Assembly: GCA_035559435.1 (NCBI GenBank)
Contig: DATMBC010000063.1
Span: 1-60,909, forward strand
Reading direction: 5' to 3'
DNA from: a bacterium
GTDB taxonomy: Bacteria; Zixibacteria; MSB-5A5; WJJR01
DNA: 60,909 bases
This document shows positions 4,801-40,894 of this stretch, piece by piece. The position numbers and the translations under genes were made by a program. Within the stretch, counting starts at the first letter, position 1. Each line of letters opens with the position of its first letter. The notes below the pieces were generated by a model, which saw nothing but the letters and a program-made list of their open reading frames with translations, ran no database searches and had not been told where the DNA came from.

Positions 4801-5856
4801 ATGGGCTTTCCATTCAAACGCCGTAACAAGTCGGTCGCCGCGCTCGACATCGGCGCCAACGCGCTGAAGTTCGTGCGCCTGGATCGACACTCCGATGGGT
4901 TCACCCTGTCGGCCGCCGGCATCCGTGAAATGCCGCCCGAGGCCCTGGTCTCCCACGAGATCAAGGACCGCGACGCGATCATCCTCAATATCCAGAGTCT
5001 GCTGGACCAGTGCGATCCCCGCACCGACGAGGTGGTCGTCTCGATCGCCGGACACGGCGTCATCACCGACAAATTCGAAGTCGATCTCAAGACCGGCGGC
5101 GAGGCCGAACAGGCCATCCTCTTCGAGGCCGAACAACGCTCGCCCTTCGACGTCGACGACGTCTCCATGGACTACCACATCCTGCGGACCGACCCCGACC
5201 GCGGCAAGATGGAGGTCCTCCTCGTCGCCGCGCGCCGCGAGTTTCTGCAGGAGTATCTGCATTTGATCGAGGACGCCGGCCTGAAGACCAACATGGTCGA
5301 CACCGACGCCTTCGCGGTGCTCAACGCCTACCAGATCAACTACGAGATCGATCCGGAGCGTGTCACCGCGCTGGTCAACATCGGCTTTGACACCACCAAC
5401 GTGATCTTCCTCAAGGATGGTTCCTACCACTCGACCCGCGACGTCTCCGCGGGCGGGCGGATGATCTACGAGGCCATTCAGCGCGAGTTCCGTCTCAACC
5501 AGGAACTGGCCGCCAAGGTGCTCAAAGGCGAGCTGGAGTCGACGGTCGATCAGGACATGCTGCGCGCCACCGTGCGCAACGCCGCCGACGAATTGCTCAC
5601 CGGCATGGAAGTGGCGTTTTCGTACTTCCGCACCCTGGCCAAGACCGACGCCGTCGATTGGATCGTGTTGTCCGGCGGCGGCGCCCTGATCCCGTATCTG
5701 CCCGAGAGCGTGCAGTCCAAACTCGGCATCCCGATTGAGATCTTTAACCCGCTGCGGAACATTGAATACGATCCCGAACTGTTCGGCGGCATCGACCCGG
5801 AAAAGATCGCCCCGCTTCTGGCGGTGGGCGTCGGATTGGCTTCGCGCGAGGTCTGA
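4801..5856 (+). CDS. pilM: Type IV pilus assembly ATPase-like protein PilM
   Basis: 351-residue actin-like cytoplasmic protein of the pilus alignment complex, which links the inner-membrane PilN-PilO pair to the assembly ATPase. The N-terminus KSVAALDIGANALKFVRL is the typical PilM/FtsA-like phosphate-1 region, and LVNIGFDTTNVIFLKDG and VLSGGGALIPYL are later nucleotide-binding motifs. ATG 4801 is preceded by GGGGAGGA; an in-frame upstream extension has no pilus-like sequence and is not used. First gene of pilM-N-O-(AMIN-P)-Q, with pilN starting 4 bases after its stop. Confidence 0.95.
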   Translation: MGFPFKRRNKSVAALDIGANALKFVRLDRHSDGFTLSAAGIREMPPEALVSHEIKDRDAIILNIQSLLDQCDPRTDEVVVSIAGHGVITDKFEVDLKTGGEAEQAILFEAEQRSPFDVDDVSMDYHILRTDPDRGKMEVLLVAARREFLQEYLHLIEDAGLKTNMVDTDAFAVLNAYQINYEIDPERVTALVNIGFDTTNVIFLKDGSYHSTRDVSAGGRMIYEAIQREFRLNQELAAKVLKGELESTVDQDMLRATVRNAADELLTGMEVAFSYFRTLAKTDAVDWIVLSGGGALIPYLPESVQSKLGIPIEIFNPLRNIEYDPELFGGIDPEKIAPLLAVGVGLASREV

Positions 5857-5860
5857 GACC

Positions 5861-6586
5861 ATGTCAATGATTGAAATCAATCTACTGCCACGCGAACTGC
5901 GCCGCTCCACAAGCGGCCTCGCCGTCCCGAAATCGGCCATCACCGGCATCATCGGCGCGGTGATCTTCGCCGGCGTTCTGGGCGGCCTCACCTTCTGGCA
6001 AACCCAGCGCCTGGCCGCCGTCGAAGCCGACATCACCCGCGCACAGGCCAAGGTCGAAAGCATGCGCGCCGACATCGAGCTGGTCGACCGCCTGACCAAC
6101 GTCAAGGCGTCGATCGCCCAGCGCCTCGAGGCCATCGAGGCCCTCGACCGCAACCGCGGCGAGTGGGTGCGCAACCTCGAAGACATCGTCGCGGTCATCC
6201 CCGACTACCTCTGGCTGACGGGGTTCCGCCGCAATGACTTCAAGGCCAACCGCCCCGGACGCGGCCAGACCGATTCCACCGCCGCCCCGGTCAACAACGA
6301 CTACCTCTTCGACGGCTACTGCTACTCGCTGTCGAGCCTGGCCAATCTCATCCTCAACATGCAGGATTCGCCGCGCTTCTCCGATGTGTCGCTCAAGCGC
6401 GCCAACTTCACCGACGTCAAGGACCGCAAGGTCTATGAATTCACCGTCTTTTGCCTCCTCCAGCCGGTGTCCGATGGCGAAGGCACCGGCGACGAGGCGG
6501 TCAACCCGGCCGAACTGGGCATCGATCCCAACGCGCTGGCAACCGAAGTTTCGGTCTACGACGAAACGATGGACGACGGGGAATAA
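5861..6586 (+). CDS. pilN: Type IV pilus assembly protein PilN
   Basis: 241 residues. The N-terminal motif MIEINLLPRELRR is the PilN cytoplasmic peptide that binds PilM. One transmembrane helix follows (about residues 28-46), then a coiled-coil periplasmic segment rich in charged residues and a ferredoxin-like domain. ATG 5861 follows the pilM stop by 4 bases, implying a shared message. An acidic tail of roughly 30 residues extends past the usual fold. Confidence 0.93.
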   Translation: MSMIEINLLPRELRRSTSGLAVPKSAITGIIGAVIFAGVLGGLTFWQTQRLAAVEADITRAQAKVESMRADIELVDRLTNVKASIAQRLEAIEALDRNRGEWVRNLEDIVAVIPDYLWLTGFRRNDFKANRPGRGQTDSTAAPVNNDYLFDGYCYSLSSLANLILNMQDSPRFSDVSLKRANFTDVKDRKVYEFTVFCLLQPVSDGEGTGDEAVNPAELGIDPNALATEVSVYDETMDDGE

Positions 6587-6642
6587 CTCCCCGCGACGGC
6601 AGTCAGGAGCGTATTCGCAGACGGGCGCTGCGCCGCCCATGG

Positions 6643-7272
6643 ATGGATGACATGGACCTGAGGAACCCCACAACGCAAAAATGGCTTCTGGCGGGACTGG
6701 CGTGTTGCGCGGCCGCTTACTTCTGGTACACCAAGGTGTACGTCGACTACCAGGAGAAAATCGACGCCTCCTACACGCGTCTCGAAGCGCTCGAGACCGA
6801 GGTCAAGAACGTCGAAATGAAGTTCCGGACCCTCGATGCGCTCAAGCAGGAGTACAATGACATCGTCTCCCGCTACCGCAACGTCTCCCAGTTGCTGCCG
6901 GAGGAGAACCAGCTCTCGCCGCTTTTGACCAAGATCCACGGCGCGGCGCTGGAGACCTCCTCGCGCGTCGCCACCGTCGATCCCCAGCCCCCCGTCGACG
7001 AGGGCTTCTACCAGCGCGAGAGCTTCAATTTGACGGTGCACTCAACCTTCCACGACTTCGGCGACTTTCTGTCGCGGCTGTCGAACCTGCCGTTCATCGT
7101 CAACGTGCAGGACGTCGAATTGGCGACCGTCGAAGACCAGAACAATCCCGAAATGGAGACCGGCGGCTACACGCTCACCGCGCGGCTGACCATCTCCACT
7201 TATCACGTTAAAGAATCCGAGCGCCTGATCCTTCTGGATCAGCCGTCGATTGCGCAAACGCCGGGGGAGTAA
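6643..7272 (+). CDS. pilO: Type IV pilus assembly protein PilO
   Basis: 209 residues with one transmembrane helix near the N-terminus (WLLAGLACCAAAYFWY), a coiled coil (KIDASYTRLEALETEVKN) and a periplasmic ferredoxin-like domain, the standard PilO layout. It heterodimerises with PilN and supports the secretin. The start is uncertain: ATG 6643 and ATG 6652 are both in frame and neither has a strong ribosome site; CAGGAG lies about 30 bases upstream. Confidence 0.88.
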   Translation: MDDMDLRNPTTQKWLLAGLACCAAAYFWYTKVYVDYQEKIDASYTRLEALETEVKNVEMKFRTLDALKQEYNDIVSRYRNVSQLLPEENQLSPLLTKIHGAALETSSRVATVDPQPPVDEGFYQRESFNLTVHSTFHDFGDFLSRLSNLPFIVNVQDVELATVEDQNNPEMETGGYTLTARLTISTYHVKESERLILLDQPSIAQTPGE

Positions 7273-7276
7273 GACG

Positions 7277-8881
7277 ATGAAGCGACTGGATAAGATCGTA
7301 AGTCTCGTGACGGTCGGCGCCGTCGTCTGCGCCGTGGCCCTCCCCGCGATCGCCGGGGCCGCCACGCCGGTGCGGAATCTCACCCTCGCCAAAAACGGGG
7401 ACTTCACCGAGATCACCCTGCCGGTGCCGTCGTCGCAGTTGTGCGATCATTTCACCGAGCCGGCCACCGCGGCCCGGCCGTTCCGCATTGTTCTCAACAT
7501 CTGCAATGCCGAGCACGCGTTGACGCAGCAGCACTTCGTCAACCTGCCGCCGTGCGTCGTGCAGAAGATTCGCACCAGCCAGTTCGCGCCGAATCCGGAG
7601 CCGGTTGTCCGCGTCGTTCTCGACTTGACGAAGTCGGCGACCTACACCGTGCGCGCCGAGGCCGACCGTCTGGTGATCGCGATCGCCGACGCCTCGCCGG
7701 CGTTCGCCGCCTGGAACGCGAACGCCGACGCGCCGATCCTGGCCCAGGCCGTGGCGCCGACAAAGACTGAAACGCCCGCGGTGGAAAAGCCCAAGGTCAA
7801 TCCGCCGACCGCCGCTCCGTCCGCTCCGGTCGAAACCAAGCCCGCGCAGTCGCTGACCGCCGAGCCGGTCCTCACCCAGAACGAACCGGTCAACAATGCG
7901 CCGGTCACCGCCGCCGATCTGGCCGGCCCGAACGCCGCCACGGCCACGGCCGCGACCGACGTGACGCCGAACACCGACGCGCCCGCGCCGAGTTTCTCGC
8001 TGCCCTCGCAGCCGCTGGTCCTGGCGCCCGAATATCTCTCCGCCGCCCGGGAAGCCGAGACGGCAATGAAACAGCCGGAGAGCGCCACGGCCCCGGTCAA
8101 CCCGGACAACAACGCGCCCCCGATGCTGGCGGCCACCAATGACCCGCTGGCCAATCTCGGACTGCCGCCGGAAAACACGACGACCGACACCGCGACCACG
8201 CAGGAAGCGCTGATCGATCGCCTCAAAGCCAAATTCTTCAGCAACAACCGCGCGCCCAAGCCCTATCTGACCGAAGAGGGGATCTTGATCGAGCAGTTGC
8301 AGAACATGGACAGCGCGGTCTATGGCCCGCCGACGCCGGGCACGGAAATCGACCGCGAGGCGCTCTTGGAGCGCATCCGCCTTGCCTCGCAGCATCCGGG
8401 CATTCCCGCCAACATGCTGCCGTCGGTGCCGGGCGGCCCGGCCCGCGTCGAGGTCTTTTACGATGACCTCGGCCGCCGCGACCCGTTCGAGCCCCTGCTC
8501 AAAGGCCTGCGCTCGGGCTTCATCTCCGAAGCGCTGCCCAGCGTCGAGACCCTGCGCATGGTCGGCGTGCTGAAGGATGAGGAACGCGCCATGGCGCTGA
8601 TGGAAGACACGGAAGGGCACTCGTACATCATGCGCCCCGGCGACCCGGTCGAAAACGGCCGCGTCCTGTCGGTGGGCGAGATGCGCACCGTCATTCAAGT
8701 GGACGAATACGGATGGACCCGCACCGTGGTCCTGCAGTTGTCGCCGCGCGGCGCCGATCCTTCGAAGGCGCTCGGGGCCAACAGCTGGGGACCCGACGAA
8801 ACGGAAACCGTGACGCCGACTCCGGCCGCGCCGGCCACCACCGCGCCCGCGCCGACGACGCCACAGCCACAGGGTAATTGA
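7277..8881 (+). CDS. pilP: Fusion of an AMIN domain to a PilP-like domain, pilus secretin partner
   Basis: 534 residues with a signal peptide (about 1-28). Residues about 30-135 look like an AMIN domain (strand-rich, with RIVLNICNAEH and VVRVVLDLTKSATYTV), the peptidoglycan-binding module normally found at the start of PilQ. About 240 residues of Pro/Ala/Thr-rich low-complexity linker follow. The C-terminal 120 residues match PilP: GRRDPFEPLLKG, then LRMVGVLKDEERAMALME and GRVLSVGEMRTVI. PilP usually joins PilNO to PilQ and is a lipoprotein of about 170 residues, so this is an enlarged, peptidoglycan-anchoring version. It starts 4 bases after the pilO stop. The PilP part is firm; the AMIN call is by pattern. 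Confidence 0.82.
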   Translation: MKRLDKIVSLVTVGAVVCAVALPAIAGAATPVRNLTLAKNGDFTEITLPVPSSQLCDHFTEPATAARPFRIVLNICNAEHALTQQHFVNLPPCVVQKIRTSQFAPNPEPVVRVVLDLTKSATYTVRAEADRLVIAIADASPAFAAWNANADAPILAQAVAPTKTETPAVEKPKVNPPTAAPSAPVETKPAQSLTAEPVLTQNEPVNNAPVTAADLAGPNAATATAATDVTPNTDAPAPSFSLPSQPLVLAPEYLSAAREAETAMKQPESATAPVNPDNNAPPMLAATNDPLANLGLPPENTTTDTATTQEALIDRLKAKFFSNNRAPKPYLTEEGILIEQLQNMDSAVYGPPTPGTEIDREALLERIRLASQHPGIPANMLPSVPGGPARVEVFYDDLGRRDPFEPLLKGLRSGFISEALPSVETLRMVGVLKDEERAMALMEDTEGHSYIMRPGDPVENGRVLSVGEMRTVIQVDEYGWTRTVVLQLSPRGADPSKALGANSWGPDETETVTPTPAAPATTAPAPTTPQPQGN

Positions 8882-8910
8882 CAGGCACTCTTACGGAGGG
8901 CGAAAACACT

Positions 8911-10233
8911 ATGCGACGCACCGAACACCGCCGCACACGCTGGACGGGCGCGGCACTGCTCTTGGCCGGAATCATCGGTCTTGCCCTGCTCTTCGCGAGT
9001 CCGGCGAGCTCCGAGCCGATCAAGAACATCAATTTCCAGAACGCCGACATCCGTTCGGTCATCAACTTCCTGGCCGAGTACGGCGGCGTCAACATGGTGG
9101 CCGCCCCCAACGTCCAGGGACAGGTGACCCTGAACCTGAAGAACGTCGAGTGGCGCCAGGCCCTCGAAATCCTCGCCAACACCTACGGCCTCAAGGTGGT
9201 CGATGAGCCCGAAGGGTATGTCCATGTCCTGCTGATGAAGGACTTCATGGAACGCGAGGCCGAGCGCGAACGCCACAACAACGAACAGCGGCAGATCGTC
9301 GACCTCGAAACCAAGTTCTTCCCGATCAAGCACGCCAACGCCAAGGACATCATCCCGCCGGTCAAGTCGATCCTCTCGACCCGCGGCAAAGTGGAAGTCG
9401 ATGTCCGCACCAACGGCCTGCTGGTCTCCGATGAGCCCGGCAACCTGGTCCGCCTCGAGAAGTTCATCGCCGAGATGGACCGCGAGACCCGCCAGGTGAA
9501 GATCGCCGCCAAGATGGTCGAAGTCTCCAGCGACTACCTGCACGAACTGGGTGTGAGCTGGCAGGTCAACTCCGAAGGCGAAGACTCGCGTGGACGCGAC
9601 TACTTCAACGAGGGCGTCACCGACGGCGCCGACCGCCTCGCCGATCCGTTCGGCCAGTACACGTTCACCACGATTCAAAACGGCTGGGAGCTGGAAGCGA
9701 GGATCGCCGCGCTCGTCTCCGACGGCAAAGGCAAGATCGTCGCCCATCCCGAAATCACCACCGTCGACAACAAGGAAGCCCGCATCCAGGTCGGGCAGAA
9801 GGTGCCGGTCAAGCAGTTCTCCGCCACCGGCGACGTCGTCATCACCTTCGAGGAAGTCGGCACCATCCTGCGCGTCACCCCGCACATCACGTCCGACAAC
9901 CGCATCCTGCTGCAGATGAAGCCGGAGCGCTCGTCGTTCTTCTTCGACCCGAGCGGCATCGTGATCAACACCAGCAACGCCGAGACCAACGTGGTCGTGG
10001 AAAACGGCCAGACCGCGGTCGTCGGCGGCCTCACCACGCAGGATGAGATCGTCACCGAGACCGGCATCCCGGTCCTCAAGGACATTCCGGTCATCGGCGT
10101 GCTGTTCAAATCGAAGAGCACTTCGCAGGAGTCGCGCGACCTGGTCATCTTCGTCACCCCGACCATCGTCGACCCGGCCCTGATGGGCGCCGCCGACACC
10201 GAGGGCACTACTCACGCCCCCGGCACCAATTAG
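8911..10233 (+). CDS. pilQ: Type IV pilus secretin PilQ, short form
   Basis: 440 residues. A signal peptide (about 1-33) is followed at once by an STN/N0-like domain (INFQNADIRSVINFLAEYGGVNMV), an N1 domain (about 100-180; IKHANAKDIIPPVKSILS) and the secretin pore domain to the end (VGQKVPVKQF, VVVENGQTAVVGGL, IPVLKDIPVIGVLF, ESRDLVIFVTPTIV). The outer-membrane pore for the pilus fibre. ATG 8911 has GGAGGG 10 bases upstream. PilQ usually has one or more AMIN domains before STN; here there is none, and an AMIN-like domain sits on the preceding PilP-like protein. Confidence 0.93.
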   Translation: MRRTEHRRTRWTGAALLLAGIIGLALLFASPASSEPIKNINFQNADIRSVINFLAEYGGVNMVAAPNVQGQVTLNLKNVEWRQALEILANTYGLKVVDEPEGYVHVLLMKDFMEREAERERHNNEQRQIVDLETKFFPIKHANAKDIIPPVKSILSTRGKVEVDVRTNGLLVSDEPGNLVRLEKFIAEMDRETRQVKIAAKMVEVSSDYLHELGVSWQVNSEGEDSRGRDYFNEGVTDGADRLADPFGQYTFTTIQNGWELEARIAALVSDGKGKIVAHPEITTVDNKEARIQVGQKVPVKQFSATGDVVITFEEVGTILRVTPHITSDNRILLQMKPERSSFFFDPSGIVINTSNAETNVVVENGQTAVVGGLTTQDEIVTETGIPVLKDIPVIGVLFKSKSTSQESRDLVIFVTPTIVDPALMGAADTEGTTHAPGTN

Positions 10234-10261
10234 TCTACCCCCGTAGTGCGTGCAAGTTATA

Positions 10262-10295
10262 AACGTCCCGTGGCCCGCCAGCCACGGGACGTTTT
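10262..10295 (+). terminator. Strong intrinsic terminator closing the pil operon
   Basis: A perfect 13-bp stem (AACGTCCCGTGGC) with a 6-nt loop, running into TTTTCTTT, begins 29 bases after the pilQ stop. Confidence 0.85.
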
Positions 10296-10413: not shown

Positions 10414-10856
10414 TTGTTTGGGATCGTGTGATGTAGTGTGGTGAGGCGGGTCTCACGCCCGCCCAGATGATTTGGGATTCGAGTAGCAGCCGGTCGGGGA
10501 ACTGCGCCTCACAGCGTCATCCCCTCTTGCCGTCATTCCAGGGCCAACGACCGGAGACGAAGCCGATGGTCGTTGTCCCGGGAATCTTTGTGCCATGGCG
10601 CGGCGGTGGAATAAGGATTACATCGTCGTCGTCCGCTTGCGGCGGATCCCTTCTCGGAATGGATGCAGCGCCAGACCTGTTTGTCTCACCCACAGACGAA
10701 AGCAGATGCTTCGCTTCGCCCGGCATGTCATCGCCGGGCGCATGGAACTTGACTCTGGATTGAAAACCGCAGGGGCAGATCTGAGACCTGCTCTCTGCTG
10801 CTTAGGTGACGTGAGGGCGATCGGCCGCAGCGGAGAGCCCGCTTTTTGCCGTCGAG

Positions 10857-11288
10857 TCATCTCCTGCCGGCGCGCGGACGCGGGGCCGCACGGTCATAAC
10901 GATCACGCGCCTCCTTGATCGCGGTGCGATGCCGCTCGGCCCAGTCCGCCAGGGCCATGATCGGCTTGAGCAGCGTGCGTCCCTGCGTGGTCAGTTCATA
11001 CTCCACCCGCGGCGGCGTGGTGGGGAAGACGGTGCGCCGGATCAGTCCATCCCGTTCCAGCCCGCGCAGCGTCGTGGTCAACATCCGCTGCGAGATGCCG
11101 TCGATGGTGGAACGCAACTCGCTGAACCGCCTGGCCCCGCCCCCCAGCAGCGCCACCACCAACACGCTCCACTTGTCCCCCACCCGATTGAGAATCTCGC
11201 GGATCAGGCAGGCGTCATCCCGACGGCCGCGCGGGGCGCGGCCTCCCTCGCAGAAGCAGTGACGCAATCTTTTGTGACGCAATGGCAT
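10857..11288 (-). CDS. HxlR-family winged-helix regulator
   Basis: 143 residues. The HxlR signature is clear: an N-terminal Cys near residue 27 (DDACLIREIL), DKWSVLVVALL, RRFSELRSTIDGISQRMLTTTLRGLERDGLIRRTV and PPRVEYELTTQGRTLLKPI. These are dimeric one-component regulators that often use the N-terminal cysteine to sense quinones, aldehydes or thiol stress. It is divergent from the RND efflux operon starting at 11479, and a dyad lies between the two starts, so it probably represses the pump and perhaps itself. Confidence 0.9.
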   Translation of the reverse strand: MPLRHKRLRHCFCEGGRAPRGRRDDACLIREILNRVGDKWSVLVVALLGGGARRFSELRSTIDGISQRMLTTTLRGLERDGLIRRTVFPTTPPRVEYELTTQGRTLLKPIMALADWAERHRTAIKEARDRYDRAAPRPRAGRR

Positions 11289-11328
11289 AATGCGACTGTT
11301 CGTGTCCCGTTTGGAGCGCGGTACCTTC

Positions 11329-11349
11329 TTGGTTCCGAAAAGTAACCAA
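11329..11349. promoter_or_regulatory. Candidate HxlR operator
   Basis: Perfect inverted repeat TTGGTT-N9-AACCAA in the 190-bp space between the divergent regulator and the efflux operon. Symmetry, spacing and location suit a winged-helix dimer. The assignment is inference. Confidence 0.5.
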
Positions 11350-11478
11350 CAAATGGAACAAAACCTCTCTCGCGTCGTTAACGCAGATTATCGCGGAGAG
11401 TTTCTGAGAAAATGATAACCTCCGTGCTCCGAATTTCGTTTGCATCAGCGATTCAGGGGACCGTACACCGCGAGGACC

Positions 11479-13065
11479 ATGACCTTGACTCGATCCGCAT
11501 CGCTTGTGCCGGCCACCGTTCTGGCGTTGGGGCTGACACTCTTTCATACGACGGCGCCTCTGGCGCAGCAGCGCATTCTGCCCGACAGCGCGCTCGCGGC
11601 GACGCTCGATAGTCTGTCGGGGATGCCCTTGCCGCTGTCGGAGGCCGTGCGGCACGCGCTGGCCAACTCGACGGCGGTCCGTGCCGCCCAGGCCTCCTAT
11701 CTGGCCGCGCGCGGCGCCGCCCGCCGCGAAGCCGGTGCCTTCGATCCCGAACTGTTCTTCCAACTGGACTACCTGGACGATGAGCAGCCGACCGCCTCCT
11801 TCTTTGCCGGCGCGCCGACCCTGCTCACCACCACCACCACAACCACATCCGGCCTGCGCCTGCGTCTGCCGACCGGCACCAGTTTCGAATTGGCGCTCAA
11901 CACCACCCGGTTGGAGACCAATTCCGGTTTCGCCTTTCTCAATCCGGAATACGACGCGTTCGGTTACTTGCGTTTCCGTCAGCCGCTCCTGCGCGGGTTC
12001 ACCGCCTCCGGCGCCAGGGACTACCGTCGGGCGCGCCGGCAGCGCGATGCCGCGCGCGCGCGTTACGAACAGGCGATCCTCGCGGCCACCGCCGAGGTCG
12101 AACGCGCCTACTGGGACCTCTACGCCACCGTGCGCGATTACGCCGTGCAGATTCTGACCGTCGAGCGCGGCCGGGCGTTGCGGCGCGAGACCGAATTGCG
12201 CGCCCAGGCCGGGCTGGTCGGTCCCAACCAGGTCGCCAATGCCCGCACCTTCCTCGCGCAGCAGGAATTGCTTCTGCTTGATCTGGCCGAACAACTCGAT
12301 ACGCAGTCCGACCGGCTTGCTTCCTTGATCGGGGTCCGTCCCGAATCCGGCCTCTCGCGCTTCATCCCCGTCGGCGAGCCGCCGGCGCGTTTTGTGATCG
12401 CGCCGATCGACTCCCTGGTCGCCTTGGCGCAGCGCAACAACCTCGATCTGCGCGCGGCCGCGCAGGATGTCGAGGCCGCGGAGGTTCTCGCGCGCGCCGC
12501 CGGCTGGGAACTGCTGCCCACCGTCGACCTCGTCGGTTCGGTCGGCGGCAACGGGCTGGCAGGATCGCCGCAGGACGTCATCTTCGGCGATGACACGCTG
12601 CGCGTCGAGCGCCAGGGCGGTCTCGGCGATGCGATCAGCGAAGTGACCGGACGCGACTATCCCAACTGGAGCGTCGGCATCGAGGTCACCATTCCGATCG
12701 GATTCCGCCAGGGACGCGGCGAGCGCGACCGGCTCAAGGCCGAGGCGCTGCTCTCCCGGGAGCGCCAACGCGAACTGTCGCGGCTACTCGAAGAACGGGT
12801 CCGTGCCACCCACCGTGAATTGACCAACGGCCAGGCCCGGCTCGACGCCGCCCGTGAGGGTGTCGATGCCGCCCAGGAACAGGTGCGCACTGGTCTCATA
12901 GAATTTCATAATGGCCGCACCACCGCCTTCGAGCTGGTGCGTCTGGCGGCCGATCTGGCCGCCGCGCAGCAGCGCTACTCGGAGGCGCTGGCCCGGACCG
13001 CCAAGGCCGCCGCCACGCTGCGGGAACTGGCCGCCGACCCCGACGCGGTCACCGCGACGCCGTGA
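11479..13065 (+). CDS. TolC-like outer-membrane efflux channel
   Basis: 528 residues. A signal peptide (about 1-30, ending TAPLAQQ) is followed by two outer-membrane-factor repeats made of long helices and short beta strands (LPLSEAVRHALANSTAVRAAQASYL; later LVALAQRNNLDLRAAAQDVEAAEV). ATG 11479 is chosen because it begins the signal peptide; GAGGA lies just upstream, with tight spacing. First gene of a three-gene operon encoding channel, adaptor and RND pump. Confidence 0.92.
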   Translation: MTLTRSASLVPATVLALGLTLFHTTAPLAQQRILPDSALAATLDSLSGMPLPLSEAVRHALANSTAVRAAQASYLAARGAARREAGAFDPELFFQLDYLDDEQPTASFFAGAPTLLTTTTTTTSGLRLRLPTGTSFELALNTTRLETNSGFAFLNPEYDAFGYLRFRQPLLRGFTASGARDYRRARRQRDAARARYEQAILAATAEVERAYWDLYATVRDYAVQILTVERGRALRRETELRAQAGLVGPNQVANARTFLAQQELLLLDLAEQLDTQSDRLASLIGVRPESGLSRFIPVGEPPARFVIAPIDSLVALAQRNNLDLRAAAQDVEAAEVLARAAGWELLPTVDLVGSVGGNGLAGSPQDVIFGDDTLRVERQGGLGDAISEVTGRDYPNWSVGIEVTIPIGFRQGRGERDRLKAEALLSRERQRELSRLLEERVRATHRELTNGQARLDAAREGVDAAQEQVRTGLIEFHNGRTTAFELVRLAADLAAAQQRYSEALARTAKAAATLRELAADPDAVTATP

Positions 13066-13078
13066 AAGGACTGACGAT

Positions 13079-14185
13079 ATGACACGCCCGATGACCATGA
13101 TTCACAACCGGCGCTGCAACTGGATTCTTCTGACCGGCGCCCTGACGCTGGCCGCGGCCGGCTGCGGCACACAACAGGCCGGTGGCGGCGGATTCACCAT
13201 GCCCCCCATGCCGGTCGAGGTCGCCCGGGCCGCGATGCAATCGGTCGCCGACAAGTTCGAAGCCGTCGGCACCATCGAGGCGCTGGAGGCGATCAGTGTG
13301 GTGGCCGAAATCGACGCCGCCGTCGTCAGTCTGCCTTTCGAAGAGGGGGGAAGCGTCCGCAAGGGCCAATTGATCGCCCGGTTGGACGACTCGCAACTGA
13401 AGGCCGAAGTTGACCGCGCCGCGGCCGTGCGCGATCAGTCCCAGGCCACCTACGACCGCGTCAAGGCGGTGGTGGAGCAGAAGGCCGCCGCGCCGCAGGA
13501 TCTTGATGACGCGCTGGCCGCGCTGCGCGTGGCCGAAGCCAATCTGGCCGCCGCCAGGGCCCGCTTCGACAAGACCCGGATCACCGCGCCCTTCGACGGT
13601 ATCGTCGGCGCCCGCCGCGTCAGCGTCGGCGCCTTCCTGCGCGCCGGTGAGACCATCACCGATCTGGCCAACATCGACGAGATCCGCGTGATTTTCTCGG
13701 CGCCCGAGCGGTTTCTGCCGCAGCTGACCCGCGGCGCCGATGTCACGATCTGGACCCCGGCCTATCCCGGCCGCACGCACACCGGCAAGATCGCCGTGAT
13801 CGAGCCGGTGGTCGATCCGGCCACACGCACCGCGCGGATCGTGGCGCGGGTGCCCAACCCCAAAGGCGAGTTCCGCCCCGGGATGTCCGCCAACGTCGCC
13901 GCCGAGCTGGCCCGCCGCGACAGCGCCATCACCATTCCCAACGAGGCCATCTTCGCCAACGCCGGGCAGATGTTCGTCTTCCTGGTCAATCCCGACAGCA
14001 CCGTCGCCCGCGCCGCGATCACCGTCGGCGCGCGGCTGGTCGATGTCGCCGAAATCACCGCCGGTCTGACGCCGGGCTGCGTCGTCGTGCGCGCCGGTCA
14101 CCAGAAACTCTTTGAAGGCGCGCGCGTCATGCCGATTGCCGACGCCGAGGCCGCGGCCGGCGCAAATGCGCCCACGGCCCAGTAG
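13079..14185 (+). CDS. RND efflux periplasmic adaptor (membrane fusion protein), lipoprotein
   Basis: 368 residues. The lipobox LTLAAAGC points to lipid anchoring to the inner membrane. MFP order: beta-barrel start (MPVEVARAAMQSVADKFEAVG), biotinyl-lipoyl half (VVSLPFEEGGSVRKGQLIARLDD), alpha-hairpin (about 120-175), second lipoyl half (KTRITAPFDGIVGARRVSVG), then the beta-barrel and membrane-proximal domains. It couples the RND pump at 14213 to the channel at 11479. The gene starts 13 bases after the upstream stop. Confidence 0.93.
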   Translation: MTRPMTMIHNRRCNWILLTGALTLAAAGCGTQQAGGGGFTMPPMPVEVARAAMQSVADKFEAVGTIEALEAISVVAEIDAAVVSLPFEEGGSVRKGQLIARLDDSQLKAEVDRAAAVRDQSQATYDRVKAVVEQKAAAPQDLDDALAALRVAEANLAAARARFDKTRITAPFDGIVGARRVSVGAFLRAGETITDLANIDEIRVIFSAPERFLPQLTRGADVTIWTPAYPGRTHTGKIAVIEPVVDPATRTARIVARVPNPKGEFRPGMSANVAAELARRDSAITIPNEAIFANAGQMFVFLVNPDSTVARAAITVGARLVDVAEITAGLTPGCVVVRAGHQKLFEGARVMPIADAEAAAGANAPTAQ

Positions 14186-32627: not shown

Positions 32628-33149
32628 ATGCGACGTGCCCATTTGTCCATCCGCTACATTCTCGCCGCGGCGATTGTCATGATCGCCGGGGAGAATGCCA
32701 TGGCCGGCTGGTACACTGACTCGATCAAAACCGCGCCCGTGATCGAAATCCGCGGCGAACTGGCCGACACCGCCCGTTGCCGCGAGCTGGGCGACCGCTA
32801 CATCGACGACAATCTCGACTACCTGCTCTCCGCGAACGAATGGCTGATCGTCAACTTCTGCGCCTACTGGTGCGGCGACTGCAACAACTTCACCCCCGAT
32901 TTCAACCGCGCCGCCGGCCAATCCGCCTACGCCGGCATTCGCTGGGCCTACGCCGACATCGATGGCACCCGCGGCAACGAAAACATGCGCAAACGTTTCA
33001 GTCTGCCCGGTACGCCGGTAGTGATCCTTTTCCACAAGGGCGAGATTGTCAAAGACGCCGACGGCAACCCCGCCATCCTCGATGGCCACGCCGGCGACAA
33101 GACCTACGACGACATCATCGCCTACCTGAACGCGCACTACCGTCCGTAG
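32628..33149 (+). CDS. Periplasmic thioredoxin-like protein
   Basis: 173 residues. A signal peptide (about 1-26, ending NAMA) then a thioredoxin fold: WLIVNFCAYWCGDCNNFTP with active-site Cys82 and Cys85 (WCGDC), then the cis-Pro segment PGTPVVILFHKGEIV. A thioredoxin or thiol-disulfide oxidoreductase of the cell envelope; the GD dipeptide differs from the common GPC/GHC. AAAGGAG precedes the ATG. A second envelope thioredoxin (36229) lies on the far side of the phage-type genes. Confidence 0.87.
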   Translation: MRRAHLSIRYILAAAIVMIAGENAMAGWYTDSIKTAPVIEIRGELADTARCRELGDRYIDDNLDYLLSANEWLIVNFCAYWCGDCNNFTPDFNRAAGQSAYAGIRWAYADIDGTRGNENMRKRFSLPGTPVVILFHKGEIVKDADGNPAILDGHAGDKTYDDIIAYLNAHYRP

Positions 33150-33361: not shown

Positions 33362-34642
33362 ATGCCGCACTTTCCCTCCTCCTGGTGGCAACGCCTCTTT
33401 GCCCGCCGTGTCTCCTCCTCCAGCGACCGTCCCGCCGCCTTCACGCGGGCCGCCGGTTGGTCGACTCGCCCGCGCTCCCAGCGTCCCGACTTCGGCGAGC
33501 ACGAGTGGACTTTCGCCGGCGGCGCGGTCACCGACCGTGCCTTCGCCACACGCCTGCATCGCTTCATGCGCGACCACATCCCCGTCCTCAAAGCGGTGAT
33601 CTGGACATGGACACGTCTGGCCGCCGCCCCCTCCCGCTTCGAAATCAGCGCGTCCACCGAAGCCATCAAGAATCGGTCCTATGCGGTCCTATCGGACCTG
33701 TCACACCGCATCCACCCCGACCGTCTCACCCGCTTTGCCGGATTCGACGCTCTGCTCTTGCAGTATTTCGATGCGCTCTTCACCGATGGCGCCGTCTGCG
33801 GCGAGCTCACCCTGTTGCCCTCACGCGCCGGCCTGGCACGGTTTGATTTCATCGACACGGCCACGCTCGAGTTCGCGCCGGACCCCCAGGATGGCTGGCG
33901 GATGTACCAGCGCACGCCGGGAGGACGCCTGACGCTCGATTCGGATGCCATCTTCTACCAGCCGCTGGATGCCGAGGCCGGACGTCCCCACGGCAAGTCG
34001 CTGATCGGGGCGGTCGGATTTGTCGCGCGCATCGAGCAGGAGCTGGTGCGCGACATCGGCAAGGCGACGCACAACGCCGGTTATCACCGTCTGCATGTGG
34101 CGATCAAGCCACCGGCGCCGGGCGCGGCCGAATCCGACAGCGACTACACCGCCCGCGCCAACGCCTACTTCGACCAGACCGTGCGCGCCCTGCGTGAATT
34201 CGATGTCGACGACAACCCGGTCACCTGGGACGATGTCGAAATTCGCCACATCAGTCCCTCCGGCGAGGTGACCTCGTCGCGCAGCTGGTATCTCAATCAC
34301 CGCTCGATGGTCGAGGATGTGATCGCCGGCTGCCATCTGGCGTCGTTCATGCTCGGCTACGCCTACGGCGGCACCCAGACCTGGGCCAAATTCAAATACG
34401 AGATGGTGGGCCGGCAGATCGCGACGCTGCAACGCGCCGCCTCGCGCTTCTGCGAGTGGATCGCCAACATCGAACTGGCCCTGCATGGTCTCGACGCCGA
34501 AGCCCGCCACGTCTTCGACAACCGCCTCGACTTCGACCGCCGCGAACGCTACGAAACCGACCGCGCCCTCACCGACCTGATCCTCCGCCAACTCGAATCC
34601 GGCCTGATTACGATCGACGAAGCCAGACAAAAGCTCGCGTAG
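33362..34642 (+). CDS. Phage-type portal protein
   Basis: 426 residues, usual portal length. N-terminal helix region HRFMRDHIPVLKAVIWTWTRLAAAPSRFEI; central HGKSLIGAVGFVARIEQELVRDIGKATHNAGYHRL (portal wing/stem region); then SRSWYLNHRSMVEDVIAGCHLASFMLGYAYGG and the C-terminal IANIELALHGL ... LILRQLESGLITIDEARQKL, the ending typical of HK97/SPP1-like portals. A portal is the dodecameric DNA gate of a tailed-phage head and the docking site of the terminase. The terminase gene follows after 62 bases. No scaffold, protease, capsid or tail genes are in reach. The ribosome site is weak (GGGTAGGG). Confidence 0.82.
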   Translation: MPHFPSSWWQRLFARRVSSSSDRPAAFTRAAGWSTRPRSQRPDFGEHEWTFAGGAVTDRAFATRLHRFMRDHIPVLKAVIWTWTRLAAAPSRFEISASTEAIKNRSYAVLSDLSHRIHPDRLTRFAGFDALLLQYFDALFTDGAVCGELTLLPSRAGLARFDFIDTATLEFAPDPQDGWRMYQRTPGGRLTLDSDAIFYQPLDAEAGRPHGKSLIGAVGFVARIEQELVRDIGKATHNAGYHRLHVAIKPPAPGAAESDSDYTARANAYFDQTVRALREFDVDDNPVTWDDVEIRHISPSGEVTSSRSWYLNHRSMVEDVIAGCHLASFMLGYAYGGTQTWAKFKYEMVGRQIATLQRAASRFCEWIANIELALHGLDAEARHVFDNRLDFDRRERYETDRALTDLILRQLESGLITIDEARQKLA

Positions 34643-34649
34643 GGTGCGT

Positions 34650-34704
34650 GCGCTTGTTGCGCGCACCGCGTGTCTGAAAGGGGAGAGGGCCAGGGTGAGG
34701 GGCC
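34650..34704. repeat. GGTGCGTGCGC hairpin and GGGGAGAGGGCCAGGGTGAGG half-repeat
   Basis: Right after the portal stop: GGTGCGTGCGC-TTGTT-GCGCGCACC (near 34653), then a one-sided copy of the GGGAGAGGGC-CAGGGTGAGG intergenic repeat often seen in high-GC genomes (about 34679-34702). The repeats immediately precede the terminase reading frame. Confidence 0.45.
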
Positions 34705-36153
34705 TTGGCACGCGCCTCACTCTCCATCCTCTCTTGCCCGTCCGATCATCCATCACTCACTCATGACTTCCGCAATCCCATTCTGCACCCCCGTCTGCCC
34801 TCCCCCTCCTTCCGCCGCGCGCTGGTAGATCCCGTCTACTTCGCGCAATCCTTCCTCCAGATCGACCCTCACCCCGGCCAACGGCTCTGGTTGGCCAACT
34901 CCATCACGCCCGAAAACCTGCTCCACTGCGGCAACCGCTGGGGCAAATCGCTGGCCCAGGCGATCAAGATCGCCCACCGTCTGTTGTTCCGGATCCGCGA
35001 CCCGCGCCATGACCGGGTCGGACGCTACGTCGTCGCCAATGTCTCGATCACCCTCGATCAGGCGCGGATCATCTTCAATGAGACGGTCAATCTCCTGCGA
35101 CGCCTCCCGTATTGCGACTACCTGATCGACGATCTGTTGGTCACGCCCTTCCCGATGCTGCGTCTGACCAACGGCGCGATGCTCTGGGCGCGTTCGACCC
35201 AGCGGCGCGGCGAGTACCTGCTCGGCCACGATTTTGATTTCATCTCCTTCGATGAGGCCGCCTTCGAGCCGGCCGCCGACGATGTCGTTGAGGAAGTGCT
35301 GATGATGCGCGTGGTCGACCGCGCCGGGCAGATCGATTATGTCTCGACCCCGCGCGGCAAGAACTGGTTTTTCCGCAAGGCGCAGGAGATCGCCGCGCGC
35401 GGCGGCGGGGGCTATGTTCAACGCGGCGACAGCCGCGACAACCCGCACCTGCCCGCCGCCTATCTCGAACGGACCATCGCGCGCTTGTCACCGCAACGCC
35501 GCGCCCAGAACATCGAGGGCCGCTTTGTCGACCTCGGCAACGAAGTCCTGCGCGAAGAAGACATCCAACGCGCCCTCGCCCTCTGGAAGGGCGCGCACGC
35601 CGACGCGGGGCAGGGGGCTGCAGTCGCCTTGCCCCGCCGGCGGCACTATGTCCACGGCTGGGACCTGGCCCGCAAACGCACCTGGACGGTTGGTGTCACT
35701 CTCGACATCACCGAGCGCCCGTTCCAGCTTGTCGCCTTCGAGCGCTTCCAGCATCGTGCCTGGCCGGCGGTCATCAGCGCCATTCGCGAGCGTCATGCCC
35801 GTTTCGGCGGCCGGGTAATCATCGACGCCACCGGCCTGGGCGATGTCATCCTCGCCGAGCTGGCCGACATTGGCGCGCAGGGATACAATTTCGGCGAACG
35901 CGGGGGAAAGGCGAAGGCGGAGCTGATCGCCACGCTGGAACACGCCTTTGCCGCCGGGCTGATCGGCCTCCCGATGATTGAGATGACCACCGCCGACGGC
36001 GACTACTGGTCGCTGCCCAACGAACTGCGCGAATTCACCTGGGATGACAACCAACACTGCGATGCGGTCTTCGCGTTGGCGCTGGCGCTGTGGCTGGCGC
36101 GTCAGCCGCGCGACGCGGGCACTGCGCCGTCTTTCCGTGTCGCCGGATGGTGA
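34705..36153 (+). CDS. Phage-type large terminase (TerL), packaging ATPase and nuclease
   Basis: Up to 482 residues. Walker A-type LLHCGNRWGKSLAQ (about 76-82), Walker B with catalytic Glu FDFISFDEAAF (about 178-187), coupling motif YVSTPRGKNW (213-220). RNase-H-like nuclease: Asp320 in VHGWDLARKRTW, Asp374 in VIIDATGLGD and Asp453 in NQHCDAVFALALALW. All three metal-binding Asp are kept, so the enzyme looks intact. The only early start is TTG 34705, which abuts a repeat and lacks a ribosome site, so the true start is uncertain. It lies downstream of the portal, the reverse of the usual phage order. Confidence 0.85.
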   Translation: MARASLSILSCPSDHPSLTHDFRNPILHPRLPSPSFRRALVDPVYFAQSFLQIDPHPGQRLWLANSITPENLLHCGNRWGKSLAQAIKIAHRLLFRIRDPRHDRVGRYVVANVSITLDQARIIFNETVNLLRRLPYCDYLIDDLLVTPFPMLRLTNGAMLWARSTQRRGEYLLGHDFDFISFDEAAFEPAADDVVEEVLMMRVVDRAGQIDYVSTPRGKNWFFRKAQEIAARGGGGYVQRGDSRDNPHLPAAYLERTIARLSPQRRAQNIEGRFVDLGNEVLREEDIQRALALWKGAHADAGQGAAVALPRRRHYVHGWDLARKRTWTVGVTLDITERPFQLVAFERFQHRAWPAVISAIRERHARFGGRVIIDATGLGDVILAELADIGAQGYNFGERGGKAKAELIATLEHAFAAGLIGLPMIEMTTADGDYWSLPNELREFTWDDNQHCDAVFALALALWLARQPRDAGTAPSFRVAGW

Positions 36154-36228: not shown

Positions 36229-36717
36229 CTACCAAACTCCATCACGAAGGCGCTCCAGTTCTCCGGCAAACTGCGCCGCATCGCGATAGCCGACCATCGG
36301 CCCGATCATAGTCCCGTTGCGCTGCAAGAACACCATCGTCGGCACCCCGCCCACATCAAAAACATCCCGGGCCATCTGCCGGCAGGTCACCATGCTGTCG
36401 CCGCAGACCACCATCGTGTCGAGATCGGGATTGAGGTTGACGATGTTGTACCACGATCCGAGCATGCGGATGACGGTGGTGTCGGCCAGTGTCTCCTGCT
36501 TGAGCCGCCGGCACCAGCCGCACCAATCGGCCAGCACAAACACGATTGAAACATCCTTCTTGCCGGGTGTGTCCCGGTACACGACCTCAGTCCCCACCCA
36601 CTGTAGCTCGGTGTAGACCGGTGGATCGTCACTGCTCACGCTCTTGTCGCCGCCGCAGGCGGCCAGCGACAGAAGCAGGATCATTCCCAACAGACACACA
36701 GCGCGTCGTGGGCTCAT
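36229..36717 (-). CDS. Thioredoxin-like lipoprotein
   Basis: 162 residues. Lipobox LLSLAAC with Cys21, a short linker, then a thioredoxin-fold active site VLADWCGWCRRLKQE (Cys66, Cys69) and the cis-Pro segment GGVPTMVFLQRNGTMIG. WCGWC is the motif of DUF255/thioredoxin-7 and some DsbD-linked proteins. Likely inner-face outer-membrane or periplasmic thiol reductase. It is transcribed away from the subtilase end at 36844 and reads toward the terminase. Confidence 0.87.
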   Translation of the reverse strand: MSPRRAVCLLGMILLLSLAACGGDKSVSSDDPPVYTELQWVGTEVVYRDTPGKKDVSIVFVLADWCGWCRRLKQETLADTTVIRMLGSWYNIVNLNPDLDTMVVCGDSMVTCRQMARDVFDVGGVPTMVFLQRNGTMIGPMVGYRDAAQFAGELERLRDGVW

Positions 36718-39842: not shown

Positions 39843-40050
39843 CTTCCTCCCACAGCGTGCACAACTGGATGCCGCGACGCCGCGACTCATCCAGTCCCTC
39901 CAGCATCGGCAGCCCCATCCACATCAACATCCGGCAGACATCGGCCACCGGACGCTCCAGCCGCTGCGACAACGTCTCCAGATGCGACTTCAGTTCGGTG
40001 GAGATAAAAAGCTTCAGCGCATGTTCCCCGCGCAGATTCGGCACCAGCAT
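39775..40050 (-). CDS. Small ribbon-helix-helix-like protein
   Basis: 91 residues: EHALKLFISTELKSHLETLSQRLERPVADVCRMLMWMGLPML looks like a ribbon-helix-helix DNA-binding core of about 45 residues followed by a charged tail. The ATG has a strong AAAGGAG site at good spacing, which is why I prefer it. The gene shares 164 bases in another frame with the HTH gene at 39887-40492 and overlaps the antisense 3' end of the MogA-like gene by 68 bases. Function unknown. Confidence 0.55.
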   Translation of the reverse strand: MLVPNLRGEHALKLFISTELKSHLETLSQRLERPVADVCRMLMWMGLPMLEGLDESRRRGIQLCTLWEEANADPPSRRSVSKDATGSRRGS

Positions 40051-40492
40051 CGGCGCTCCTTTCCTCGATAAAGATTCGGTGTTTGCGTTGGTGGGCCAGA
40101 AGCGTCTGCGGACTGCGGACGCGGAAGCCGGTTGCCCGCTCCAGCCGCGCGATGATCTGGCCCCAGGTAGTTGCCGGCGTCTTCCCGTCGATGATCGCTT
40201 CGGCGTCCTCCCGCCACGGCGCCGCGCAAATCGGGCATCCCGCCACCGAGGCCGCGCCGATGCCATACAAGCGCGCCACCAGCGGCGCCAGCGCGGTGCG
40301 CAACGCGCGGAACGCCTGACGCTGCGCCAGCACCATGCGATTCAGCGAGACGCCCTCACGCTCGGCCAATTGTCCCAGCGAACGGCCATCGAAATAGTAT
40401 CCCTCGATCACGATCCGCTCCAGCCCGCGCAACTGCCCCACCGCCCCACGCACCCCCCGTTCGATCACTGTTTCATTACCCCATCGCTTCAC
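39887..40492 (-). CDS. Sigma-70 region 4-like HTH protein with CPIC...H-x3-H motif
   Basis: Up to 201 residues from GTG 40492, which has GGGAGG 4 bases upstream. Residues about 18-65 are a sigma-region-4-like HTH (LRGLERIVIEGYYFDGRSLGQLAEREGVSLNRM). About 84-140 hold CPIC (Cys86, Cys89), REDAEAIIDGKTPATTWGQI, then VRSPQTLLAHQRKHR (His134, His138), a putative zinc module similar to proteins found beside phage terminases. The last 55 residues overlap the small gene in another frame and look like a shadow. The true C-terminus may be shorter, or a frameshift may exist. Confidence 0.6.
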   Translation of the reverse strand: MKRWGNETVIERGVRGAVGQLRGLERIVIEGYYFDGRSLGQLAEREGVSLNRMVLAQRQAFRALRTALAPLVARLYGIGAASVAGCPICAAPWREDAEAIIDGKTPATTWGQIIARLERATGFRVRSPQTLLAHQRKHRIFIEERSADAGAESARGTCAEAFYLHRTEVASGDVVAAAGASGGRCLPDVDVDGAADAGGTG

Positions 40493-40894
40493 GGTGCCTC
40501 CCGGACAGCACGGCGCGCTCGCGCCGCGCACATCCGAGGAAACGCCCGAACCGTGTCACTCCGCCACCATCTGACTGTCAGCGACCGTCGCGTGCGTGGC
40601 TGACTATCATCTGACGCATCACCGCGCCAAAAAAGATTGCTTCGTCGTCGTCGCGCCTACGGCGCGACTCCTCCTCGCAATGACGATAGGGTGGTCGATG
40701 AGGAAAGTGCCGTCATTGCGAGCCGGCCCGGCGTACCGCCGGACCGGCGAAGCAATCTTTTTCCCGCCCCGTCCGGCGCGAATCCCCCGCCCCATCTCCG
40801 CATTTGTTCGCAACCCCGCCATGTGCTATACTCGCGCCACCATGGGCCGGCATCCGACGGCGACGGTATCAGCACAGGCAGACAGGGAAGAGGG
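40493..40894. other. Repeat-bearing spacer before the thiolase operon
   Basis: About 400 bases without a gene. Its main content is a large inverted repeat pair (40629-40762). A frame running through it joins the thiolase but has no coding character before ATG 40895. Confidence 0.6.
40629..40762. repeat. Inverted pair of GATTGCTTCG/CGCAATGACG intergenic repeats
   Basis: Left end AAAAAAGATTGCTTCG (40629-40644) pairs with right end CGAAGCAATCTTTTT (40748-40762). Inside, CTCGCAATGACG and CGTCATTGCGAG are also inverse copies. Two units of a widespread short repeat face each other and could form a 134-base hairpin resembling a MITE. Confidence 0.75.

Follow-up and report, generated by a model that had tools for sequence, protein, structure and literature searches.

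The window, that is, the whole 60,909-nucleotide stretch of DNA analysed here, carries two adjacent phage-type genes on the plus strand. The upstream gene (33362-34642) encodes a protein of 426 aa that matches PHROG 3753, "portal protein" (E=5.5e-20), and our cassette profile c0 (E=4.6e-173). It is followed by a 482 aa ORF for the terminase large subunit (TerL; 34705-36153), which matches PHROG 2 (E=7.5e-30), scores above the cut-off for the Pfam family Terminase_6N (PF03237) and, in a comparison with the PDB, matches the phage terminase large subunits 4znj and 5m1q. TerL has probably been annotated with a TTG start that lies too far upstream: homology starts at approximately residue 34, and the true start probably lies ~30 codons downstream of the annotated one. 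Along the same strand we located the Walker A motif GNRWGKS (residues 76-82; 34930-34950), the Walker B pair D183-E184 (35251-35256), the coupling motif S214-T215-P216 (35344-35352) and the nuclease aspartates D320 (35662-35664), D374, together with the conserved D380 (35824-35844), and D453 (36061-36063). Residues 76-81 of Walker A and all of the other residues listed show identities of 97% or more among 36 TerL sequences from across the class. The initial annotation had described an intact portal gene beside an intact terminase gene with these catalytic motifs, in the reverse of the usual order; the open reading frames, the profile matches and the conservation among homologues agreed with that description, and the portal-then-TerL order proved to be real and the rule within the phylum of the host.

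The pair sits in a core chromosomal stretch, with FtsY (SRP54 family), an S1-domain protein, a cytidylate kinase and a thiolase as neighbours, and a subtilase and thioredoxins as further ones. Two different thioredoxin-like genes flank the pair on opposite strands (32643-33149, plus; 36229-36717, minus). GC content does not stand out. When 28 window proteins were scanned against PHROGs and the whole window was searched with the cassette profiles, no further capsid, tail or lysis gene was found, so that, as far as these scans reach, the pair is unaccompanied by other recognisable phage structural genes; the sole integration-category match among the 28 proteins was marginal and fell on a cytidylate kinase. 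The gene at 39887-40531 (minus) was considered as a small terminase, an assignment that found no support: it lies outside the conserved cassette, and its small product has a weak match to sigma-70 region 4 below the cut-off, a Cys-x2-Cys motif and no known family.

A search of the remainder of the genome placed the major capsid gene on another contig, C12 (37585-38682, minus strand), which rules out a missing capsid. The surrounding locus (C12, 27000-42359; positions below count within this locus) carries 11 cassette genes, all of them open reading frames on the minus strand recognised by cassette profiles: a protease-like gene (12903-13685), c5 (12640-12963), n27 (12181-12498), a decoration protein gene (11747-12169), the capsid gene (10580-11704), a propeller gene, c6 (8817-10271), c8 (7967-8791), c9 (7562-7936), c7 (7258-7545), n20 (6637-7221) and c182 (5407-6546). 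The products of this second locus include small neck-like proteins. The holin-like n15 was not found by profiles in the cassette loci of this genome. Because the remaining cassette genes are open on C12, the genome has a two-locus system rather than an orphan pair without a capsid, as had been proposed, and the suggested recent loss of the rest is not supported either. In several related family members the capsid half lies near genes that we read by eye as recN and der.

Next, we compared the arrangement of the cassette among related genomes. Outside the taxonomic order to which the window's genome belongs, the flanks of 20 relatives showed the pair usually followed by a conserved operon. The usual gene order, seen across 80 loci, is portal, TerL, protease-like protein, a short membrane/coiled-coil protein, a protein of 130-140 aa, decoration protein, capsid, propeller, c8, c9, c7, c182 and sometimes the holin-like n15; in a few lineages c8 and c9 are swapped, or c7 lies between portal and TerL. 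The cassette is uninterrupted in most genomes of the phylum and divided into two loci in the window's order. TerL and capsid genes lie on one contig in 66 genomes, within 12 kb of each other in 58 and farther apart in 8. Examples of such a distance are 60 kb (G001) and 91 kb (G050, whose genus-mate G024 has both genes together); the extreme distances measured in G117 and G130 may be artefacts of assembly. The split into two loci is most simply read as secondary, and because the parts are separated by over 12 kb in 8 of the 66 genomes, the case of the window's genome is one of several rearrangements.

Several proteins of the operon could be related to known families. Operon genes match the PHROG 3922 major head protein (E=3.7e-62) and the PHROG 4588 virion structural protein (E=1e-10); a search of the capsid profile against PDB sequences gave no match. 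The protease-like protein matches PHROG 16951, a family without known function (E=2e-17), and has a conserved His and Ser in the fashion of prohead proteases plus a Cys/His cluster, from which we infer a protease role. The structural model of the propeller protein c6 is of high confidence (pLDDT 95), and because in a fold search it resembles lectins and sialidases, as well as one chain from a phage portal-tail complex, c6 is a candidate glycan-binding protein. The model of c8 shows a three-helix bundle at its C terminus; its fold search returned baseplate and tail proteins at low TM only and gave no clear structural match. c8 may be a head-tail adaptor, a reading helped by its one homologue on a phage contig, which lies near capsid and portal genes on the phage-like contig L178, described below. 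The N termini of c182 and n20/c150, read by eye, are signal-peptide-like.

No integrase, replication or tail gene was recognised within the conserved cassette, nor was an endolysin, and the holin-like n15 gave a weak match only. Searches for the tail sheath (PF04984) and for PhageMin_Tail (PF10145) each gave hits in just 5 of 58 genomes but did pick up the control genomes, which rules out a contractile or long flexible tail, as far as these two families represent one, as a conserved partner. Both tail hits in the window's genome lie on a separate phage-like contig of 26071 bases (C74) with its own structural genes. This contig carries contractile-phage-like genes, including a sheath and a tape measure; a counterpart of the sheath was not detected elsewhere in the genus, and the contig may be a prophage acquired recently or else the result of faulty binning. 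In family f12 (G021:C158; G038:C87 and C240; G043:C23; G051:C282) we observed two tail-sheath genes, ~5 kb apart where they are on one contig, and these pairs are reminiscent of an extracellular contractile injection system or of a phage.

The host belongs to the phylum Candidatus Zixiibacteriota (Zixibacteria, GN15); the group includes a few genomes under other names, which are probably misnamed or misbinned. We examined 132 genomes of the phylum, 78 of which were at least 90% complete and at most 5% contaminated and are referred to as good genomes. The capsid profile detected the capsid in 111 of the 132 genomes and in 73 of the good ones, essentially in single copy, with seeming second copies being two fragments of one gene. 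TerL was present in 115 and 71 genomes, respectively. Among 58 whole genomes of the class, 47 have a TerL homologue, nearly always in single copy, with identities of 77% within the genus, 68-73% within the family, 61% within the order and mostly 42-57% within the class; a portal homologue occurs in 48 of them and gives the same picture. Conservation of the pairing over many host lineages, which had been put forward as support for a domesticated system, was therefore observed. In four genomes (G063, G085, G098 and G119) TerL has one in-frame stop, which may reflect errors of assembly or pseudogenes of recent origin. Hosts can do without the system, because Zixibacteria RBG-1 (G023), assembled as a single contig, has no detectable TerL and the 98% complete genome G039 lacks portal, TerL and capsid. 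In RBG-1 both portal and capsid are present (C1, 1560000-1579900); a genome search detected no TerL, and a sensitive search around the portal found no diverged one beside it. The absence of TerL from this genome may be a loss or a gap. G039 and G058, both fairly complete and of family f8, have neither capsid nor TerL and are candidates for a true loss of the system.

To follow the inheritance of the system, the trees of portal, TerL, capsid, propeller and c8 were set against an rpoB tree. Gene distances correlated with those of rpoB (r 0.74-0.87). For TerL, 19 of 20 well-supported splits were present in the rpoB tree and none conflicted with its well-supported splits; the capsid shared 23 of 25, with one conflict, and the portal 18 of 22, with three. 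Pairwise dN/dS (NG86) for portal, TerL and capsid was 0.01-0.18 for within-genus pairs, values that are approximate since dS was often ~1 or above, and rose to 0.27 for within-family pairs; it reached 0.28 and 0.31 for the protease-like and decoration genes. All of these ratios lie well below 1, the signature of purifying selection that the initial annotation had asked for. Because dN/dS is low and the catalytic residues are preserved, the portal and motor are very likely used for packaging DNA.

We then looked at relatives among phages. Tailed phages from metagenomes with a PHROG 3922 capsid and a PHROG 3753 portal have homologous TerL, portal, protease-like, decoration and capsid genes; unlike the Zixibacteria cassette, their contigs place TerL before the portal wherever both were detected, and some have tail genes, such as that for a sheath-like protein read by eye in contig L171. 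Close homologues residing in complete prophages, against which the domesticated reading had to be held, were not what we found: identity is no more than 33-37% for the best capsids of true phages, and in each of the capsid, portal and TerL trees the Zixibacteria sequences group as a clade separate from the phage homologues (support 0.92, 0.93 and 0.84-1.0, the last with six phage TerLs only). Because the phage contigs have TerL first and the Zixibacteria clades are separate, the gene comparison indicates that the portal-TerL order is a derived trait of the Zixibacteria clade. Two IMG/VR contigs deserve mention. One, IMGVR_UViG_3300027896_005586 (L165), is a Zixibacteria cassette with 57% capsid identity and the same gene order, which the database calls a viral contig. 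The other, IMGVR_UViG_3300009431_001290 (L178), is phage-like and has a close portal, a c4 gene and the only c8 homologue seen outside Zixibacteria, in a permuted order; it is possibly a relative of the ancestor.

Taken together, these results leave us highly confident that the genes belong to a vertically inherited, domesticated DNA-packaging particle system. The existence of a pair alone in the window and of a distant family of phages that shares the head genes would suit a remnant prophage, decaying or recently broken, of which portal and terminase are left; this explanation is made hardly credible by the open capsid genes elsewhere in the genome and by the single-copy presence across the phylum, the congruence with rpoB and the purifying selection, which rule out recent prophage decay. 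An equally improbable alternative is an active, cryptic Zixibacteria virus, integrated in many genomes and spread by horizontal transfer. It would account for the homology of the head genes to those of tailed phages and for the cassette with 57% identity called a virus in IMG/VR, but the integration, replication and tail genes that an active prophage has along with its head genes were recognised neither in the cassette nor among the scanned neighbours of the pair, the split loci can lie tens of kb apart, no genome holds more than one copy and the trees follow rpoB. An encapsulin-like compartment re-using a phage capsid protein would share with our system the presence of a domesticated phage-type capsid protein in bacterial chromosomes. 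Encapsulins are built to hold enzymes rather than DNA and are not known to have a portal or a terminase. Here, no cargo enzyme was recognised in the operon, and portal and TerL are co-conserved with the capsid and kept under selection, so that such a compartment is very unlikely. Encapsulins share the virus-derived HK97 fold (PMC8346489).

The function of the particle is less certain. We favour, with moderate confidence, gene transfer by a phylum-wide domesticated particle resembling gene transfer agents (GTAs), which would package host DNA and deliver it. The suggestion of a domesticated packaging machine, perhaps of GTA type, is supported by the conserved pairing and the purifying selection read from the sequences; nothing that we saw points to a role in defence. 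A domesticated DNA-packaging head particle could instead have a job other than gene transfer, for instance in killing relatives or competing with them, in the storage or shedding of DNA, or as a source of extracellular DNA. Such a job would fit the lack of a conserved long tail and the signal-peptide-like c182 and n20/c150 next to a lectin-like propeller, an unusual mix for a phage head operon, and conservation proves usefulness, not transfer; yet the kept nuclease and ATPase residues, while compatible with it, fit GTAs best, and we consider it unlikely, if worth keeping in mind. To our knowledge, the vertically inherited particles that have retained a packaging motor are GTAs.

GTAs have been defined by six features: caudovirion-like particles made of caudoviricete-derived proteins, full endogenisation, often at several loci, mostly vertical inheritance with co-diversification with the host, encapsidation of mostly random host DNA, a head too small for the whole of their own genome and delivery of the packaged DNA to other cells (PMC9662315). 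In Zixibacteria, similarity to portal, TerL, capsid and virion-structural PHROGs points to caudoviricete-derived proteins; the genes are chromosomal, lie in core-gene neighbourhoods and occupy two loci in the window's genome and order; and their trees and distances co-vary with rpoB as described above. As to head size, the observation is that 60 kb (G001) and 91 kb (G050) separate the two halves, and as to delivery, that no conserved long tail was found. With three of the six features seen in the sequences, we regard the system as a candidate GTA, not as a proven one. It resembles the type I GTAs of alphaproteobacteria (RcGTA family) in having caudoviricete-derived chromosomal genes that are vertically inherited and co-diversify with the host, in comprising a structural cluster, with the genes spread over more than one locus, and in the presence of TerL, portal, protease and capsid. 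In contrast to these, it occurs in another phylum, and almost throughout it, has another head-gene set in which portal precedes TerL, lacks the recognisable tail that RcGTA has and includes a lectin-like propeller and signal-peptide-like proteins. In the BhGTA of Brachyspira a single-copy terL, conserved in the host group, lies outside the main structural cluster (PMC9662315). Both BhGTA and the window's genome have terL apart from the structural cluster, but in Zixibacteria the split is lineage-specific, portal and TerL stay together, and the host group is a phylum, not one genus. Our literature searches, which covered sources other than preprints and most subscription journals, found nothing linking Zixibacteria or Zixiibacteriota with gene transfer agents, nor anything on Zixibacteria and capsids.

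If the GTA-like reading is right, the protease would mature the procapsid, into which the terminase would pump host chromosomal DNA by way of the portal. The particle would then leave the cell, the propeller would bind a glycan on a sibling cell, and that cell would take up the DNA in GTA fashion, without a recognisable long tail. A bolder version, which we put forward tentatively and regard as doubtful, is that of a vertically inherited DNA-packaging particle without a conventional tail, almost phylum-wide, in which the lectin-like propeller, perhaps together with the particle's own secreted surface proteins, serves to deliver or display host DNA along a route unlike that of any GTA known.

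That motor and capsid operon have come apart repeatedly would show how a domesticated virus loses the need to travel as one piece. Should the gene-transfer interpretation be true, cassettes of this kind are being miscalled as viruses or as orphan phage genes, the L165 contig in IMG/VR being one of them. GTAs would then not be limited to a few cultured groups but would have been present early in an entire uncultured phylum, and a particle system would have been retained in about nine tenths of its good genomes. Zixibacteria would possess a built-in route of gene exchange, and why hosts keep such particles would become a question testable at a very deep time scale.
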